DNA of 64,000 nucleotides. Source: an uncultured Prevotellaceae bacterium. Lineage in GTDB: Bacteria > Bacteroidota > Bacteroidia > Bacteroidales > Bacteroidaceae. Within the stretch, counting starts at the first letter, position 1, and each line of letters starts with the position of its first letter. The position numbers and the translations under genes were made by a program. The stretch covers positions 1-64,000 of the forward strand of contig ONOG01000004.1 in NCBI GenBank assembly GCA_900319385.1, given 5' to 3'. The notes beneath the pieces were generated by a model. It ran no database searches. It had not been told where the DNA came from and worked only from the letters and a program-made list of their open reading frames with translations. Shown here one piece after another: positions 10,054 to 18,436 of the stretch.

Positions 10054-13000
10054 TTGGATACGCGACAAATTCTTCGTGTCCTGGCCTCGAACCCGCAGGT
10101 CAGGCAGCTGGGTGAGGCTCTTCGCAAGTCTCGCCCTCGTTTGTTTCAGCTTGCCGGACTGCAAGGCTCAGCCACTGCCGCCATGTTCTCAGCCCTGTCG
10201 CTGTCGCGTGGACGTCTGCCGCTGCTGCTCTTTGTGATGGACGATACCGACGAAGCCGGCTATTTCTACCACGACCTCGTACAGCTCATGGGCGACAGCC
10301 GCGTGCTTTTTCTCCCCTCGTCCTATCGCCGCGCCATCAAGTACAACCAACTCGATGCCGCCAACCAGGTGCTGCGCACGGAGGTGCTCTCGCAGTTGTC
10401 CACACGTGCCGACCAGCTGTTCTGCATCGTCACCTCGCCCGAGGCACTGGCCGAGACCGTCGTCTCGCCACGGCAGATGGATGCCAACACGCTTGCGGTC
10501 AAGCTGGGTATGAACCTCGATTTCAACGAATTGGAGGAGCGACTCGACGCGCTTGGCTTTCAGCGTGTCGATTATGTCTATGAGCCAGGGCAGTATGCCA
10601 TGCGTGGCAGCCTGGTCGATGTGTTCAGCTATGCCAGCGACGAGCCTTTCCGCATCGACTTCTTCGGCGACGAGGTGGAGAGCATCCGCACTTTCGACGT
10701 GCAGACACAGCTCTCCGACCACACGGTGACCGACTTCAACATCGTGTCGGCCCAGGCACAGAAGCACGACGAGCGCGTTCCTGTCTTCGACTATCTGCCC
10801 GAGGACACCGTCGTCGTCACACGCGACCGTGCCTACCTCTGCGACCGCATCGCCCAGATTCATCAGGAGGGATTCAGCCAACAGGCAGCACACGAAGGAA
10901 AAGATGCTGCCGAATTTCAGCAGAAAGTAGTGCAGCCCGACGTGTTCAACGTAGCCTTTGCATCGTTGCGTTGCGTCTTGTTGGCGGGAGCAATGGGTGA
11001 CGCGCAGACGATTTCCTTCAACACCTCGGCCCAGCCGCTGCTGCACAAAAACTTTGAACTCGTGGAGCAGGAGTGCCGGCGCCTCACTGCCGACGGCTAC
11101 ACCTTATATATATTAGCTGACAGTGGTAAACAGCTTGACCGCCTGAAGGAAATCTTCGGTGCCTTTGCTGAGCCTCTCAGCTTCATTCCCGTCGAACGTA
11201 CCCTCCACGCAGGCTTCATCGACCACGACCTGCGTGCGGCGTTCTTCACCGACCACCAGATATTCGACCGTTACCACAAGTTCAGTCTCAAGAGCGAACG
11301 TGCGCGCCGCGGCCATGCTGCCGTCACGCTCAAGGAGCTCCAGCAGCTGAGCATAGGCGACTATGTCGTGCACATCGACCACGGCATCGGGCGCTTCGGC
11401 GGGCTGGTCAACGTGCCTTCCGATACGGGTCGCGGCTATCAGGAGATGATTAAAATCACCTATCAGCACGACGACACCGTCTATGTCTCCATCCACGCCT
11501 TGCACAAGATTTCCAAGTACAAGGGCAAGGAGGGCGAGCCGCCGCGCCTCTCCCACCTCGGCACCGGAGCCTGGGAACGCATGAAGGACCGTGTGAAGAC
11601 CAAGGTGAAGGACATTGCCCGCGACCTCATCAGGCTCTATGCACAGCGAATGAAGGAACAGGGCTTCAGCTATTCGCACGACAGCTACCTGCAGCACGAA
11701 CTCGAGGCGTCGTTCCTCTACGAAGACACGCCTGACCAGCTGAAGGCGACGCAGGACGTGAAGGCCGACATGGAACGCCCGCAGCCCATGGACCGCCTCG
11801 TCTGTGGCGACGTGGGATTCGGCAAGACCGAAGTGGCTGTGCGTGCAGCCTTCAAGGCTGCCGTCGATGGAAAGCAGACAGCCGTGCTCGTGCCGACGAC
11901 CGTGCTGGCCTACCAGCACTATCAGACTTTCTCCTCGCGACTGAAGAACCTGCCCGTGCGCGTCGATTACCTCAGCCGTGCCCGCTCGACGAAGGAGCAG
12001 AAAGAGCTGCTCGCCGACCTCGAAACCGGCAAAATCGACATCATCATCGGCACCCACAAACTGATTGGGAAGAGCGTGAAATTCCACGACCTCGGACTCC
12101 TCATCATCGACGAGGAGCAGAAATTCGGCGTCGGTGTGAAGGAGAAACTCCGTCAGATGAAGGTCAATGTCGATACGCTCACCCTCACAGCCACACCCAT
12201 TCCGCGCACCCTGCAATTCTCGCTCATGGGTGCTCGCGACCTGAGCATCATCCAGACGCCGCCGCCCAACCGATACCCCATCCAGACGGAGCTCCACACC
12301 TTCTCGGCCGACGTGGTGGCAGAAGCCATCAACTTCGAAATGTCGCGCAACGGACAGGTGTTTTTCGTCAACAACCGCATCAACAACCTGCCCGAACTCG
12401 AGGCAATGATCCATCGGACAGTGCCCGACGCCCGCGTCTGTGTCGGACACGGACGCATGGATCCCAAGCAACTGGAGGAGGTCGTGATGGGCTTCATGAA
12501 CTACGACTACGACGTCATGCTTTCGACAACCATCGTCGAAAACGGCATCGACGTGCCCAACGCCAATACCATCATCATCAACTCGGCACAGAACTACGGC
12601 CTCTCCGACCTGCACCAGATGCGCGGTCGCGTCGGCCGAGGCAACAAGAAAGCGTTCTGCTACTTGCTTGCGCCGCCACTTGCAGCCCTGCCCGACGATG
12701 CCCGACGCAGGCTCAAGGCTATCGAGAGCTTCAGCGATCTGGGCAGCGGACTGCAGATTGCCATGCAGGATCTCGACATTCGTGGCGCCGGCAATATGCT
12801 CGGAGCCGAACAGAGCGGCTTCATCGCCGACCTGGGCTACGAAACCTATCAGAAAGTGCTGGCAGAAGCCATGTCGGAACTGAGGCGGGAAAGCCCCACC
12901 TCCACCCACAGCCTTCCCCCCGCTCCCTCCCAGGGAGGGGAAAAGAGCCTGCCGAATGGCAACACCCCCTCCATGGGAGAGGCTTGGGGTGATGTCTCCA

Positions 13001-13443
13001 TCGACTCCGACCTCGCCGCCTTCTTCTCCGAATCCTTTGTGCCCTCGTCGAGCGAGCGCATGAACCTCTACCGCGAGCTCGACGACCTCAGCACCGAAAG
13101 CCAACTGCAGGCCTACCGTCAGCGACTCATCGACCGCTTCGGCTCACTGCCCTTCGAGGCAGAGGAACTGCTGCGCGTCATGCCTCTCAAGTGGGCTGCG
13201 GCACAACTCGGCATCGAGCGACTCACACTCAAGCAACGCCGCATGATATGCTATTTCCCTACCGAAAAGGAAAGCCCATACTACAAGAGCGATGCCTTCG
13301 GACAGGTGATCCACTATGCGTCGTGGCACCCCCGCCAGTGCAAACTGCGCGATGAGAAAGTCCGCTCACTCCTCATTTACGACGTGCAGACCGTCGAGCA
13401 GGCACTCGGCATCCTCAACGAAATGCTCCGTCCCATCGGCTGA
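10054..13443 (+). CDS. mfd: Transcription-repair coupling factor
   Basis: Mfd displaces RNA polymerase stalled at DNA lesions and recruits UvrA. The 1129-residue protein has the UvrB-like N-terminal part (DYVYEPGQYAMRGSLVDVF), the polymerase-interacting region around GDYVVHIDHGIGRFGG, Walker A GDVGFGKTE at 585-593, the DEEQ box at 686-689, helicase motifs including TATPIPRTL and QMRGRVGRG, and a C-terminal TRCF domain. The start must be TTG at 10054, because a stop codon lies four codons upstream in frame and the N-terminal NPQVRQLGEAL region is conserved. Residues of about 946-980 are encoded by a palindromic repeat also found at 1580-1627. They sit in the linker before the C-terminal domain. 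Confidence 0.93.
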   Translation: MDTRQILRVLASNPQVRQLGEALRKSRPRLFQLAGLQGSATAAMFSALSLSRGRLPLLLFVMDDTDEAGYFYHDLVQLMGDSRVLFLPSSYRRAIKYNQLDAANQVLRTEVLSQLSTRADQLFCIVTSPEALAETVVSPRQMDANTLAVKLGMNLDFNELEERLDALGFQRVDYVYEPGQYAMRGSLVDVFSYASDEPFRIDFFGDEVESIRTFDVQTQLSDHTVTDFNIVSAQAQKHDERVPVFDYLPEDTVVVTRDRAYLCDRIAQIHQEGFSQQAAHEGKDAAEFQQKVVQPDVFNVAFASLRCVLLAGAMGDAQTISFNTSAQPLLHKNFELVEQECRRLTADGYTLYILADSGKQLDRLKEIFGAFAEPLSFIPVERTLHAGFIDHDLRAAFFTDHQIFDRYHKFSLKSERARRGHAAVTLKELQQLSIGDYVVHIDHGIGRFGGLVNVPSDTGRGYQEMIKITYQHDDTVYVSIHALHKISKYKGKEGEPPRLSHLGTGAWERMKDRVKTKVKDIARDLIRLYAQRMKEQGFSYSHDSYLQHELEASFLYEDTPDQLKATQDVKADMERPQPMDRLVCGDVGFGKTEVAVRAAFKAAVDGKQTAVLVPTTVLAYQHYQTFSSRLKNLPVRVDYLSRARSTKEQKELLADLETGKIDIIIGTHKLIGKSVKFHDLGLLIIDEEQKFGVGVKEKLRQMKVNVDTLTLTATPIPRTLQFSLMGARDLSIIQTPPPNRYPIQTELHTFSADVVAEAINFEMSRNGQVFFVNNRINNLPELEAMIHRTVPDARVCVGHGRMDPKQLEEVVMGFMNYDYDVMLSTTIVENGIDVPNANTIIINSAQNYGLSDLHQMRGRVGRGNKKAFCYLLAPPLAALPDDARRRLKAIESFSDLGSGLQIAMQDLDIRGAGNMLGAEQSGFIADLGYETYQKVLAEAMSELRRESPTSTHSLPPAPSQGGEKSLPNGNTPSMGEAWGDVSIDSDLAAFFSESFVPSSSERMNLYRELDDLSTESQLQAYRQRLIDRFGSLPFEAEELLRVMPLKWAAAQLGIERLTLKQRRMICYFPTEKESPYYKSDAFGQVIHYASWHPRQCKLRDEKVRSLLIYDVQTVEQALGILNEMLRPIG
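12899..12990 (-). repeat. GC-rich palindromic element inside mfd, in frame
   Basis: The stretch contains CCCTCC/GGAGGG stems and then TGCCGAATGGCAAC (12950-12963), the reverse of the tail of the element at 1580-1627, followed by the matching CCCCCTCC and GAGGCTT blocks. It is translated as a Pro/Ser/Gly-rich linker of about 35 residues. Confidence 0.75.
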
Positions 13444-13571: not shown

Positions 13572-13602
13572 GTTTCCCTCAACCATCGCGCAAATAACGC
13601 AG

Positions 13603-13642
13603 TCGAGCTGTTCAGTCGGTCCTAAACCGCTGAGCAGCTCGA
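13603..13642. terminator. Hairpin between mfd/TraX remnant and the PII-like gene
   Basis: TCGAGCTGTTCAG (13603-13615) pairs with CTGAGCAGCTCGA (13630-13642) with one G-U pair, and the loop can extend the stem through CGGT/ACCG. It lies between convergent genes and may act in both directions. Neither side has a strong T-run, so termination is inferred from position. Confidence 0.5.
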
Positions 13643-13665
13643 TTGTGTTGAGAGATGGAGTGGGG

Positions 13666-13959
13666 TTAAATCGAAGCTTCTACACTCCACTGGAAGGCAC
13701 GGATGCCGAGCATGGGGTTGTCGTCGTCCGTTTCCTTGAGGCGGCGCAGCAGGGCAGATGCCTGTTCGTCGTCGACGACGGTGAGGATGGCGCTGTTCAT
13801 GGTGGGCCATGCGTGCGAACCCAGGTGCGGGTCACCGGTCTTGCTGCCGCAGCCACCTACCTGTTCGAAGAAGGTGTAGCCACGGGCGTTCGTGCGGCTC
13901 AGCACGGCCAGCACGTTGTCTTTCTGTGCCTGGTCAAAGGCTATGAAGATGGATTTCAT
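13666..13959 (-). CDS. PII-like small protein linked to the RND pump
   Basis: This 97-residue protein starts at MKSIFIAFDQAQ; the longer frame runs through the direct repeat and is rejected. The order strand, helix, strand, glycine-rich loop (GGCGSKTGDPHLG), strand, helix, strand fits the ferredoxin-like fold of PII/CutA-type proteins, whose loop binds nucleotides or metals. Residues ILTVVDDEQASALLRRLKE form the second strand-helix unit. It is the last gene of the tetR-tolC-adaptor-pump operon. Small PII-like proteins next to RND efflux genes may sense pump load or a ligand, which is inference. It lacks the classic PII T-loop tyrosine site. Confidence 0.6.
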   Translation of the reverse strand: MKSIFIAFDQAQKDNVLAVLSRTNARGYTFFEQVGGCGSKTGDPHLGSHAWPTMNSAILTVVDDEQASALLRRLKETDDDNPMLGIRAFQWSVEASI

Positions 13960-13964
13960 GCGTT

Positions 13965-14093
13965 CCCACCCCCATCCCCTCCCTGTGGGGGAGGGGCGTA
14001 GAATGTTTGGTGGGGGTGATATTCTACTATGATTATATTCCTTGTTTGTTTTGTGGTGACAGACCACGCCCCTTCCTTGCAGGGAGGGGTGGG
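13965..14093 (-). repeat. Intercistronic structured repeat, copy L (direct repeat with 17291-17405)
   Basis: The 129-base element fills the gap between the pump stop codon and the PII-like start, which is six bases away. It has three possible stems: CCCCTCC/GGAGGGG, GTAGAAT (13998-14004) with ATTCTAC (14021-14027), and CCCTTCCTTGC/AGGGAGGGG. The same blocks in the same order occur at 17291-17405, again six bases from a start codon. Confidence 0.85.
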
Positions 14094-14095
14094 TC

Positions 14096-17000
14096 TTATT
14101 CTTCGTCTTCCTCAGCCACGAAGTGCAGCTCCTGCTGAGCGTGCTCCTTCCAGTAGGCGTTGAGCTCGCGTTGCTCGCGCATCTTGCGACGCTGGCGCTT
14201 CACACCGTTGCCGCCGAAGATGCAGAACATCGATGGGGTGTAGATGAGGGTGAGGATGGTGGAGGCCGTCAGACCGCCGATGATGGCGATACCCATGCCG
14301 CGCCACATCTCGGCACCGACACCTTGCGACATGGCCATGGGGACCATACCGAGGATGGTGGTGAGCGAGGTCATGAGGATAGGACGCAGACGGCTGCGGG
14401 CTGCGGCGACGGAGGCACGGATCAGGCCATAGCCGCGTTCACGTAGCAGCTGGGTGTAGTCGATGAGCACGATACCGTTCTTCACCACAATACCGATCAG
14501 CATGATGCCGCCGAGCATCGACATGATGTTCAGGTTCTGACCCGTGAATATCAGCGAGTAGATGATACCTGCGAAGGCGAAAGGCACCGTAATCATGATG
14601 ATGAAGGGGTAGGTGAGGGACTCGAACTGGGCAGCCATGACAATGAACACGAGCAGGATGATGAGGATGCCCAGTGTGCCCAGGTCGCGGTTGGAGTCCA
14701 TCTGGTCTTCGTACGAACCGGCAACCTGGATGGTGATACCTGCGGGTATGTCCATGTTCTCGTAAATACTGCGTCCGAGCGCAACACCGTCCGACAGTGC
14801 GTAGCCGTCCTTGAGCACGGCATTGACGGTGACGATGCGCTGGCGGTCCTTACGTTCGATGGTCGGTGGAATTTCGCTTTCGATGATGTTGGCGATGTCG
14901 CGCACACGGACGTTGCCGCGTTGGGTGGGCACGAGCATGTTGAGGATGTCTTCTTTGCTCGTACGTGCGTCGGGCTCGTAGCGAACCTTGATATCGTATT
15001 CGTCACCGTCTTCGCGGTAGTAGGACATGAGCGAACCGTTGATGAGGTTGCGCACGGCATTCGATGCATCGCTCATGCCGATGCCCAGTTCGGCGAGTTT
15101 GTCGCGGTCGAAATCAACAACGAGTTCGGGCTGGAAGTCCTGTCGAGAGATGTTGGTCTGACCTACCATCTCGTTTTCGGCGAGCTTGGCTGCCAGTTCG
15201 TTGGCCAGCTGACCGGTGGCATCCATGTCGTAGCCGTAGATTTCGAACGTCGCGGTGCTCTGTCCACCCATGCCGCCGCCCTGGCGACCGCCGAGCATGA
15301 CTTGGAACTTGTCGAGTTCGGGAATGGCTTTGCAGTCTTCACGCATCTCGTCACAGATGGCTACGAGTCCCTTGTCGCGCTGGTTCGAGGGGACGAACTG
15401 GATATTGAAGGATGCGATGTGGGTACCGTTGTCCGAGAGTGAGGCGAAGGTGTTGTTGTCGCCTGCCTGACCGACGGTGAAGTTGCACGCTTGCAGGTCG
15501 CTGCCATAGCGCTTCATCCACTTGTCAGCCAGCTGTCGCGCTATCTCCTGCGTCACTTCCTTACGCGTTCCGATGGGGGTCTGCAGCGTGACGCCGACAC
15601 GACCCGAGTCGTTGGCAGGGAAGAACTCCGTCTTCAGTCCGATGACCTTCATCGTGACGATGGAGGAGACGAAGAACAGGACGCACAGTCCGATGACGGT
15701 CCAGCGGTGGCGTACGGCCCAGTTGATGAGCTGTTCGTATTTGTCGTCGAGCTTGTCGAGCCAGCGCTGAACGGGGCCGTAGAGTTTCTTGAACAGCTTG
15801 CTCTGTTTCTTCTGAAGTCGGAGCATCTGCGAGCAGAGCATCGGCGTGAACGACAGGGCCGACGTCGTGGAGATGGTCATGATGATGCACATCATCCAGC
15901 CGAGCTGCTTGAAGAGCACACCCGTCATACCCGTCACCATCGTGAGTGGGAAGAACACGGCAATCATGGTCAGGGTCGAGGCGATGACGGAGATAGCCAC
16001 CTCGTTCGTCGCGTGGATGGCTGCCTGCTTCGGGTCGCTGCCTCGCTCGATGTGCGTCGTCACATTCTCGAGGACCACGATGGCGTCGTCGACGACGTTA
16101 CCGATGGCGATGGTGAGACAGGCGAGCGAAATCATGTTGAACGAACCACCCGTGGCATACAGATAGATGAACGACGCGATGAGCGACATCGGGATGGTGA
16201 TGGTGATGATGACCACGGCACGCCAGCGTCCGAGGAACGCAAACACGACGATCACGACGAAGAGCATGGCGTAGATGATGGTCTCGGTCAGCGTGTTGAT
16301 GGTGTTCATGATGTTGTCCGAGGTGTTGATCATCACCTGGATGTTCACGTCGGAGGGAAGGTTCTTGCGCAGTTCGGGCAGCATCTTGATGACCTTGTTC
16401 GAGATGGCTACCGAGTTGGCACCGCTCTGCTTCTGGATGATGACGATGGCGCCCTGCTTGCCGTTAGTGAAGGTGGACTGGGCACGCTCTTCGACGTTGT
16501 CAACAATGCGGGCCACGTCGCGCAGGTACACTTTTGCACCGTTGAAACTGCCGACGACGACATTCTCCATTTGCTTCGGGTCGGTGAACTCACCTTCGAC
16601 GCGCACGGTGTAGGTTGTCGTACCGATATCGACCGAACCGCTGGTCGTGTTGCGGTTCTCCGAGGCGATGGCAGCGCTGACCTGTGCTGCGCTCAGTCCG
16701 TAGGCTTCCATGCGCTTCGGGTCCATGTAGATGTTGATTTCGCGCTCAGGCGCACCGCCGATGCTGACGGTACCCACGCCGTCGATGCGCGCCAGCGGGT
16801 TGGCGACGTTCTCGTCGAGGATTTTGTAGAGTGCCTGTTGGCTCTCTTCGGCCTGCACCGAGAGCAGGACGATAGGAATCATGTCGGTCGAGAACTTGAA
16901 GATGATGGGCGTGTTGGCGTCGTTCGGCAGCGAGTTGCTCACCATGTCGAGTTTGTCGCGAACGTCGTTTGTCAGGTCGTCGATGTCGTATCCGTACTCG

Positions 17001-17284
17001 AACTGCATGGTGATGACGCTCACGTTCTCGCGCGAGTTGCTGGTGATGTGCTTGAGGTGCTCGACGGAGTTGAGCGTATTTTCGAGCGGACGAGTCACGT
17101 TGTTCTCAATGTCGTTGGCCGACGCACCATTATAATAGGTAAAGATCATAATGGTATTGGTCTCGATGTCCGGCATGAGGTCGATAGGCAGCTTGACTGC
17201 CGAGAACACACCGAACACGATCACGGCCAGGAATACGAGGCTCGTCATAATCGGTCGTTTGACCGCTCCTTCATATAAACTCAT
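14096..17284 (-). CDS. RND efflux pump, inner-membrane subunit (AcrB/MdtC type)
   Basis: This 1062-residue proton-driven transporter exports drugs or other small molecules through a periplasmic adaptor and TolC channel. It starts at MSLYEGAVKRP, opening the first membrane helix. Twelve helices in two groups of six and two large periplasmic loops are expected and visible. Asp399 and Asp400 in VVDDA match the proton-relay aspartates of helix 4. The second half holds the GIVVKNGIVLIDY and RPILMTSLTTILGM blocks. The C-terminal tail is charged. The sequence is closer to multidrug pumps than to heavy-metal pumps, but the substrate is unknown. The gene is flanked by direct copies of a roughly 120-base repeat. 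Confidence 0.9.
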   Translation of the reverse strand: MSLYEGAVKRPIMTSLVFLAVIVFGVFSAVKLPIDLMPDIETNTIMIFTYYNGASANDIENNVTRPLENTLNSVEHLKHITSNSRENVSVITMQFEYGYDIDDLTNDVRDKLDMVSNSLPNDANTPIIFKFSTDMIPIVLLSVQAEESQQALYKILDENVANPLARIDGVGTVSIGGAPEREINIYMDPKRMEAYGLSAAQVSAAIASENRNTTSGSVDIGTTTYTVRVEGEFTDPKQMENVVVGSFNGAKVYLRDVARIVDNVEERAQSTFTNGKQGAIVIIQKQSGANSVAISNKVIKMLPELRKNLPSDVNIQVMINTSDNIMNTINTLTETIIYAMLFVVIVVFAFLGRWRAVVIITITIPMSLIASFIYLYATGGSFNMISLACLTIAIGNVVDDAIVVLENVTTHIERGSDPKQAAIHATNEVAISVIASTLTMIAVFFPLTMVTGMTGVLFKQLGWMMCIIMTISTTSALSFTPMLCSQMLRLQKKQSKLFKKLYGPVQRWLDKLDDKYEQLINWAVRHRWTVIGLCVLFFVSSIVTMKVIGLKTEFFPANDSGRVGVTLQTPIGTRKEVTQEIARQLADKWMKRYGSDLQACNFTVGQAGDNNTFASLSDNGTHIASFNIQFVPSNQRDKGLVAICDEMREDCKAIPELDKFQVMLGGRQGGGMGGQSTATFEIYGYDMDATGQLANELAAKLAENEMVGQTNISRQDFQPELVVDFDRDKLAELGIGMSDASNAVRNLINGSLMSYYREDGDEYDIKVRYEPDARTSKEDILNMLVPTQRGNVRVRDIANIIESEIPPTIERKDRQRIVTVNAVLKDGYALSDGVALGRSIYENMDIPAGITIQVAGSYEDQMDSNRDLGTLGILIILLVFIVMAAQFESLTYPFIIMITVPFAFAGIIYSLIFTGQNLNIMSMLGGIMLIGIVVKNGIVLIDYTQLLRERGYGLIRASVAAARSRLRPILMTSLTTILGMVPMAMSQGVGAEMWRGMGIAIIGGLTASTILTLIYTPSMFCIFGGNGVKRQRRKMREQRELNAYWKEHAQQELHFVAEEDEE

Positions 17285-17290
17285 GATAGA

Positions 17291-17405
17291 CCCACCCCCG
17301 ACCCCTCGCTGCATGGAGGGGAGTAGAATGGTTTATGGGGGTGTATATTCTACTTGTGTTATTGCTCAAAGTGACCGCTCCCCTCCCTTGTGAGGGGTAG
17401 GGGGA
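17291..17405 (-). repeat. Intercistronic structured repeat, copy R
   Basis: This element fills the gap between the adaptor stop codon and the pump start codon. It keeps GAGGGG-GTAGAATG and ATTCTAC (inverted pairs 17323-17329 with 17347-17353) and the flanking CCCCTC/GAGGGG blocks found at 13965-14093. Confidence 0.85.
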
Positions 17406-17413
17406 AGGGCCTG

Positions 17414-18436
17414 TTATTTTATCACTTCCACTTCGCGGCCGTTGGCCAGCTTGGTCTGACCGGCTGTGACCACTTGGTCGCCGTCGCGAACGCCGCTCAG
17501 GATTTCATACTGGTCGCCGATTTGGCGTCCGAGCTCCACTTTGTTGTAGCTGACTTTGCCGTCTTTATAGACATAGACGTAGCGGTCGCCGGCACCAATC
17601 TGCTTCACGACAGCCACGTCGGGCACCAACACGTGCTGCTCGTCGCCGAAGTTGACGGTGGCGCGGGCGAACATTCCAGGACGCACTTTCTGCGACTGGT
17701 TGTTGATGGTGATTTCGACGGGGAAGGTGTGTGTCGTGGCGTCGATCGAAGGATAAACGATGGTGACGGTGCCGGTGAAGGCTTCGCCTGGGTAGGCATC
17801 GAGCTCCAAATCGACGGGCATGCCGCGGTGCATTTTCGAATAGTTCACTTCGGAGATGTTGACAATGAGCTTCACGGGGTTGGTCTGCTCGATAGTCAGC
17901 ACGGGTTGTCCGCCGTACATGTCGCCGTTGTCGTAGTTGCGGGCAGTGACGACGCCGCTGATGGGAGCGGTGAGCTGGGTGTTCTGTACGAGCTGACGGT
18001 ACTGTGTCTCGAGCACGTCGAGCTGCATCTTCACGTTGTCATACTCTGCCTTCGAGGCGCCGCCCACTTCGTAGAGGGCGCTGGTGCGGTTGTACTCCAC
18101 TTTCATGTTGTCGATCTGCAGCTTGAGCTGGCGCAGGTTCGACGCGTCGAGCTGTACGACCACCTGTCCTCTGCGCACGACGTCGCCCACATCCACCAGC
18201 ACGCGCTCGATGCGCAGCGGGGCGTTCGGGGCGATGTTGTTCTTGACGTCGCTCTCCACCGTGGCGGAGTAGGTTTCGATCTGTGGAATGCTTTGGCTGT
18301 GAACCTGGGCAATCTTCACTTGGGGCTTGGCTTCAGCCTGTGCAGCTGCGGCCTCCTCGCTCTGCGAGTTGCTGCTGCACGAAATCATGGCGATGGCCGC
18401 AATGAGTGTGAGTGCGGCCGAATAATACTTATTCAT
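17414..18436 (-). CDS. RND periplasmic adaptor lipoprotein (HlyD/MFP family)
   Basis: The 340-residue adaptor joins the pump to its TolC channel. It has a lipoprotein signal with lipobox MISC (Cys near residue 20), a short alpha-helical hairpin (about 95-150, relatively small), a lipoyl half-motif (RVLVDVGDVVRRGQVVVQLD and APISGVVTARNYDNGDMY), a beta-barrel domain and a membrane-proximal domain ending VVTAGQTKLANGREVEVIK. It lies between the tolC-like and pump genes of one operon, 78 bases after the former across a heptamer array and 129 bases before the pump start. Confidence 0.9.
   Translation of the reverse strand: MNKYYSAALTLIAAIAMISCSSNSQSEEAAAAQAEAKPQVKIAQVHSQSIPQIETYSATVESDVKNNIAPNAPLRIERVLVDVGDVVRRGQVVVQLDASNLRQLKLQIDNMKVEYNRTSALYEVGGASKAEYDNVKMQLDVLETQYRQLVQNTQLTAPISGVVTARNYDNGDMYGGQPVLTIEQTNPVKLIVNISEVNYSKMHRGMPVDLELDAYPGEAFTGTVTIVYPSIDATTHTFPVEITINNQSQKVRPGMFARATVNFGDEQHVLVPDVAVVKQIGAGDRYVYVYKDGKVSYNKVELGRQIGDQYEILSGVRDGDQVVTAGQTKLANGREVEVIK

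Follow-up and report, generated by a model that had tools for sequence, protein, structure and literature searches.

Repeats flanking an RND efflux pump gene are members of a family of folded RNA leaders in operons of rumen relatives of Prevotella

The window analysed here is a stretch of 64,000 nt from an uncultured Prevotellaceae bacterium (assembly GCA_900319385.1, contig ONOG01000004.1, positions 1 to 64,000), which contains two copies of a repeat, one on each side of a resistance-nodulation-division (RND) efflux pump gene. These repeats are two members of a family of folded RNA leaders present in many operons of rumen relatives of Prevotella, where they occupy the gap between one stop codon and the next start codon. 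Their fixed position and orientation with respect to the downstream start codon, together with the covariation of a hairpin loop with a G-rich tag situated before that codon, support the suggestion of an initial annotation of this DNA that they are mRNA elements acting on translation within the operon. Judging from the sequences, we consider the chances about even that the element is a structured, cis-acting mRNA module located between two operon genes and acting on the translation of the downstream one; its likeliest role would be to control initiation or reinitiation through alternative pairings in which the tag takes part.

On the coding strand, the order of the element is stop codon, GACCC, hairpin P2, AT-rich linker, hairpin P3, hairpin P4, G-rich tag, around 5 nt and ATG. 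Used as a DNA query, the copy situated downstream of the pump gene (copy 1) produced 13 matches in its own genome and matches in nine of 61 genomes, including its own; the pattern of the inner hairpin occurred at five places in this genome versus one for a reversed control pattern. Inspection split the copies into those bearing P3 (GTAGAAT, a C-rich loop and ATTCTAC) and those with the same ends but lacking P3. Sixteen P3-bearing copies, aligned in the mRNA sense, were the seeds for a covariance model of the start-proximal half, leaving out 4 of 20 hairpin matches without the arrangement of C-rich loop and palindrome (loci L058, L081, L082 and L097). The model matched 65 of 399 genomes of the family, in nine of 30 genera (E 1e-5), with P3-less copies included among the matches, and the bare P3 pattern with its 3′ flank was found in 33 of these genomes and four genera; in a sample of the order, only the window's own genome matched (1/295, E 1e-7). 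The family scan scored up to 12 candidates per genome and listed part of the matches and, therefore, copy numbers are lower bounds. Of 144 model matches in the fetched loci, those of at least 47.3 bits were taken and reduced to 106 distinct P3-bearing copies. Matches below this score, many of them on the opposite strand beside counted copies, were not counted; 20 of the lower-scoring matches listed in the family scan were inspected.

Exact matches to one form of the element were found in 26 stretches of a named collection, all from assemblies of uncultured Prevotella, Prevotellaceae, Bacteroidaceae or Bacteroidales; several sample names indicate ruminants (deer, sheep, goat), and we take RUG in these names to denote a rumen series. 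A known Rfam family was rejected, because no match reached the gathering threshold among 4227 families, either in window positions 13600-17800 or in 14 element-bearing loci; the sub-threshold matches were to anti-hemB in the window (21 bits versus 49.5) and mostly to miRNA families in the 14 loci. We found no printed description of the repeat in the portions of the literature consulted; the portion seen of a report of 3161 candidate structured RNAs, some from Bacteroidetes, leaves room for an earlier computational match in its candidate list (PMC8040213). Carriage by phages was also discarded, since none of the 20 stretches of viral contigs matching the hairpin pattern had both the G-rich tag and the C-rich loop. 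Two start-proximal halves occur in tandem ahead of a single start codon in L110 (1436-1564), and L138, L145 and L185 contain three element-bearing gene junctions each.

The 3′ side of the element is anchored at a start codon. All 106 copies have an in-strand ATG 0-5 nt past the end of the model, at exactly 1 nt in 82 of them, and the ATG was no part of the covariance model. This ATG opens at least 60 codons in 105 copies; in the exception, L130, the frame breaks off after 49 codons that are similar to the beginning of the L112 protein. With the P3 hairpin as the sole criterion, an open-frame ATG was found 20-60 nt downstream of 82 out of 82 sites, compared with 6/82 on the opposite side and 19.9% of random positions (3980 of 20000), in loci that had been picked by the covariance model. 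Outside such loci, five of six matches to the bare pattern were at an ATG, and the sixth had no C-rich loop. Among the 20 lower-scoring matches, L257 has P3 with a C-rich loop and sits at an ATG, and L242 (ca. 809-893), also at a start codon, has GTGATAT/ATATCAC as its 7-bp stem where GTAGAAT/ATTCTAC would be expected, a hint of compensatory change in P3. Of the other 18, two were within 20 nt of an ATG opening at least 60 codons, and the P3-less ones were mostly away from starts.

The 5′ side is in turn anchored at a stop codon. In 79 of 80 measurable copies, the GACCC end falls between 30 nt upstream and 18 nt downstream of the last base of the preceding gene's stop codon, and in 59 of them within -2 to +6; in about ten copies, the upstream frame enters the element and terminates in the P2 region. 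Anchored at both sides, the element thus spans the whole interval between the stop and the start codon. In L111 and L115, the upstream protein runs into the element and ends in ...ETLPSPSL through a stop codon of the P2 region.

The loop of P3 is complementary to the G-rich tag before the ATG. In the 101 copies with full 7-base strands (five of the 106 without a full loop or tag were set aside), 652 of 707 loop-tag cells were Watson-Crick (92.2%); shuffling the tags among copies gave 79.7% on average and 84.4% at most, with 0 of 5000 shuffles reaching the observed value. Sliding the register by one base lowered pairing to 71.7% or 56.3%. The main loop/tag pairs were CCTCCCC/GGGGAGG (37 copies), CTCCCCC/GGGGGAG (21) and CACCCCC/GGGGGTG (3). 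Additionally, L213 has CCTTCCC/GGGAAGG before a gene for a ferredoxin-like protein (MAKMRGAIV), and the other copies of that junction have CCTCCCC/GGGGAGG. At least seven consecutive Watson-Crick pairs join loop and tag in 72 of 106 copies, and the longest match of the loop with the 3′ arm of its own P4 was of six bases or fewer in all 106; P4 and the putative pseudoknot therefore keep different registers. No counts were taken from alignment A4, a MAFFT alignment of 50 of the 106 copies in which the different loop types are out of register.

The 5′ end of the module, which lies at the upstream stop codon or beside it, complements the tag as well, and on average pairs with it more strongly than the P3 loop does (-19.7 versus -15.6 kcal/mol; 84 copies). 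The 5′ end serves as a control for the loop-tag test because it is of the same ancestry: it paired no better with its own tag than with permuted tags, 200 of 200 permutations being as good or better, whereas the P3 loop with its own tag surpassed 200 of 200 permutations. End-to-end pairing was thus rejected as a coevolving interaction.

Both window copies are on the minus strand, that of the operon, and are described here in the mRNA sense. Copy 1 lies between the RND pump gene (14096-17284, minus strand; Pfam PF00873, start set by the conservation of MSLYEGAVKRPI) and a gene for a P-II family protein (13666-13959, minus strand; PF00543, E 1.2e-7). Its GACCC end (14091-14095, GGGTC on the plus strand) abuts the pump stop codon (14096-14098), and is followed by the distal GC-rich palindrome P2 (14069-14089), by P3 with its C-rich loop (13998-14027), by P4 (CCCCTCCC/GGGAGGGG, 13976-13996) and by the tag TGGGGGTGGG (13965-13974), which complements the P3 loop (CACCCCCA) and is placed 5 nt before the P-II start codon (13957-13959). 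Copy 2 lies between the pump gene and the upstream gene for a periplasmic adaptor, or membrane fusion, protein (17414-18436, minus strand; Pfam HlyD_D23). It extends to 17411, its 5′ end being GGCCC (17407-17411), 2 nt after the adaptor stop codon (17414-17416); then come P2 (17380-17397), P3 with a C-rich loop (17323-17353), an imperfect P4 (CCCCTC/GAGGGG, 17302-17321) and the tag GGGGGTGGG (17291-17299), 6 nt before the pump start codon (17282-17284). Both copies fold better than shuffled sequences, with z-scores of -4.45 and -4.57; together with the further matches in the genome, this shows that the repeat is not a chance resemblance.

The initial annotation had recognized these copies as direct repeats flanking the pump gene, with three hairpins and a conserved GTAGAAT..ATTCTAC; their positions, their common orientation, and P3 with a GC-rich hairpin on either side agree with our analysis. 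The limits it had set, of 129 and 115 bases, have to be widened, as the natural ends reach further, and the uniform spacing of six bases to the next start codon corresponds in fact to 5 and 6 nt. Its alternative, homology for deletion of the pump gene, is not supported: no exact run longer than 10 bp is common to both copies, which makes their recombination unlikely, and the pump gene was matched in each of the 13 genomes of the genus. In a long plus-strand frame (10054-13443) that is presumably Mfd-like, window positions 12895-12985 contain a GC-rich palindromic stretch (protein segment PPAPSQGGEKSLPNGNTPSMGEAWGD) that looks like a decayed in-frame repeat.

The tag, ca. 6-14 nt before the ATG, resembles a Shine-Dalgarno sequence: GGAGG or GGGGG appears at -16 to -4 in 96 of 106 copies. 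A G-quadruplex before the start was discarded, the motif being found in 13 of 106 copies. Ribosomes of the Bacteroidia are reported not to recognize Shine-Dalgarno sequences and to prefer initiation regions with A at -3, -6, -12 and -13 and with weak structure ahead of the start codon (PMC9976891). The leaders, with T at -3 in 84 of 106 copies and G at -6 in 85, are the reverse of this reported preference, and the empty junctions of the nearest relatives are short A-rich gaps without a G-rich tag.

A plausible mechanism relies on the tag having two mutually exclusive partners, the 5′ end of the module and the P3 loop. As long as the upstream gene lacks translating ribosomes, the tag would be buried in the stronger end-to-end pairing. 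Once a ribosome terminates at that gene's stop codon, it would cover the 5′ strand and free the tag for the P3 loop, and the resulting pseudoknot might then determine, up or down, how often ribosomes initiate or reinitiate on the downstream gene.

Several observations weigh against this interpretation. Most relatives lack the element in the corresponding gap. Free-energy folds prefer the end-to-end pairing, the 5′ end, where included, pairing with the tag region (eight copies); in window copy 1, it pairs with the P4 arm and with only the first bases of the tag. The copies used to count covariation are related, and their three main loop/tag types point to no more than a few independent switches; the strength of the permutation test is limited because these few types dominate related copies. 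The P3 stem was invariant in the 16 seeds (7/7 pairs), which had been selected by that stem, and pairing of P3 and P4 in the seeds (93.3%) was barely above that of shuffled controls (92.5%; 31 of 500 shuffles), a count that is weak because P3 is invariant there. Finally, some copies show poor loop-tag pairing, including L002 and L003 from the window's own genome.

Turnover of the element is evident from the comparison of gaps within the genus. Between adaptor and pump it is present in genomes G000 and G010, and between pump and P-II gene in G000 and G008, being absent in each case from the other ten readable genomes; it is also found only in G000 and G008 among nine genomes read for the gap of the KDPG (2-keto-3-deoxy-6-phosphogluconate) aldolase gene and among 13 for that of the L002 gene. 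A match in L240 was false, due to GAAGAATG repeats, and was dropped. The refuting condition set by the initial annotation, a lack of covariation and of the element in the same gaps of close relatives, does not apply, since there is covariation and some relatives do carry the element in these gaps. Most of them lack it, however, and it is therefore not conserved as an essential part of the pump operon. Because its presence differs between close relatives, the module is either mobile or easily lost; both vertical inheritance with losses and repeated insertion are possible as the history of shared junctions. In the adaptor-pump gap of G010 (L046/L100), the element is without its 5′ half and the adjoining C-terminal residues of the adaptor are lost, as if by deletion.

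This turnover agrees with an alternative we consider rather unlikely, although better placed than the other rivals: that the element is mobile DNA with inverted hairpin ends, of the type of miniature inverted-repeat transposable elements (MITEs) or of doublets of repetitive extragenic palindromic (REP) sequences forming hairpins (REPINs), landing without host function in operon gaps that tolerate insertion. Its ends are indeed terminal inverted repeats (GACCC..GGGTC), with a palindrome in each. Moreover, relatives that share these ends but have no P3 are located within long open frames or in other places away from starts (L001-L097), and look like MITE- or REPIN-type repeats translatable as protein parts. 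A MITE is nevertheless expected to insert independently of gene start and orientation, while the P3-bearing copies were at an ATG in 106 of 106 cases and always in a single orientation. Tolerance to insertion does not explain this anchoring, because larger neutral gaps exist, and mobile DNA does not account for the covariation of P3 loop and tag. We saw by eye no target site duplication in the flanks of 44 paired elements, and GTAG, the tag of REP sequences, is inside the P3 stem and not at the end of the repeat. Genes for Y1 transposases, or REP-associated tyrosine transposases (RAYTs), gave 11 matches in seven of 13 genomes of the genus, with the palindrome in none of the 11 loci, of ca. 2.2-3.3 kb each, and four of the seven genomes of the genus that carry the element lacked a Y1 match, although genomes are incomplete. 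Mobilization by RAYTs was consequently rejected, there being no palindrome near any Y1 gene found. Position and orientation likewise led us to reject the idea that random transposon insertion fully explains the P3-bearing copies.

A protein acting in trans could also recognize the GTAGAAT hairpin in the RNA, repressing or stabilizing the downstream gene. The P3 stem is near-invariant while loop and tag vary, as in sequence-specific recognition; however, exact stem arms were favored by the search itself, L242 has another stem at a start codon, and no candidate protein was found, although none was looked for, so that we regard such a binding site as improbable. Lower still we place mRNA processing or differential stability setting the expression ratio of the two genes, as discussed for REP sequences and bacterial interspersed mosaic elements (BIMEs): strong hairpins between co-directional neighbors, such as groES-groEL and sdhA-sdhB, suit it, but a barrier to decay needs no fixed distance of a few nt to the ATG, and loop-tag covariation is left unexplained. 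A DNA operator or an internal promoter is very improbable, since, in spite of a palindromic P3 with invariant arms, the P3 loop, and hence the arm spacing, ranges between 12 and 17 nt, as is more fitting for an RNA hairpin, and the Bacteroidetes promoter motif TAnnTTTG appears in only 2 of 106 linkers, leading us to reject the promoter.

Among known systems, the proposed switch resembles the pseudoknot of the leader of plasmid replication genes (repZ, repA) of ColIb-P9, IncB and IncL/M plasmids. In leaders of this type, a hairpin loop pairs just upstream of the downstream start and the upstream cistron ends within the structure; the pseudoknot governs a single replication gene, preceded by a short leader peptide, and an antisense RNA counteracts it. 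Here, likewise, the loop is complementary to sequence just upstream of the start. In 79 of 80 copies, the stop codon of the upstream gene is located at the 5′ strand, and there is a pairing competing with the pseudoknot that a terminating ribosome might open. Unlike the plasmid leaders, the module is a repeat between full-length housekeeping genes, and we know of no antisense RNA for it. The TAACTGA intergenic repeats of marine Beggiatoaceae are similarly dispersed just upstream of the starts of many unrelated genes, with a proposed role in translation (PMC4679880); they are short direct heptamers of unrelated sequence, in contrast to a folded module with a covarying pseudoknot, and no tandem TAACTGA heptamers were found in the consensus sequences of alignments A2 and A4. 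REP, BIME and REPIN palindromes, associated with RAYTs, are likewise dispersed, mostly intergenic and sometimes inside genes, and an action in mRNA has been proposed for them (PMC3733652); the module differs from them in the lack of a terminal GTAG tag, in having no linked RAYT found and in its fixed anchoring at start codons. Finally, the extended Shine-Dalgarno leader of Flavobacterium rpsU is, like the module, a strong Shine-Dalgarno-like sequence in a class otherwise ignoring such sequences, although it concerns one ribosomal gene instead of many metabolic genes with a pseudoknot; no Bacteroidales were reported to satisfy the criteria for rpsU autoregulation (PMC9976891).

The proteins encoded downstream of the 106 copies include many housekeeping functions. 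Family searches supported the junctions groES-groEL, pta-ackA, sdhC-sdhA, sdhA-sdhB, gldK-gldL and adaptor-RND pump, as well as a sugar kinase gene before that for KDPG aldolase and an aminotransferase gene before that for 3-deoxy-D-arabino-heptulosonate 7-phosphate (DAHP) synthase. Other downstream genes were argG and those for a pyruvate ferredoxin oxidoreductase-type subunit, a thiamine pyrophosphate (TPP) enzyme, prephenate dehydrogenase, OmpH and methylmalonyl-CoA mutase. Excluding three of the 106 copies, from named contigs whose genus number is not known (L072, L073 and L095), there were 41 junction families, eight of them shared by two or more genera. Four were common to genera g1 (10 families) and g15 (33), with a chance probability from 1e-5 to 2.5e-3 for assumed numbers of 2000 and 500 junctions, respectively. 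The mean likeness of copies was only slightly higher for the same junction in different genera (0.858) than for other junctions (0.815). A wider, tentative possibility, to which we give less weight than to an action on translation as such, is that a spreading RNA module colonizes operon gaps and installs a termination-dependent pseudoknot switch, acting on a Shine-Dalgarno-like tag, in unrelated housekeeping operons of bacteria normally unable to use Shine-Dalgarno sequences; the same junctions would have been occupied repeatedly across genera because coupling of those gene pairs was selected.

Strongly structured leaders with a G-rich tag thus precede groEL, ackA, sdhA, sdhB and the pump gene, contrary to the preferences reported for the Bacteroidia. 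If the module works as proposed, it would show how these bacteria couple or tune genes inside operons, would offer a ready test of Shine-Dalgarno use in Bacteroidales, and would be a case of a repeat seated between a stop and a start codon that leaves the operon unbroken.

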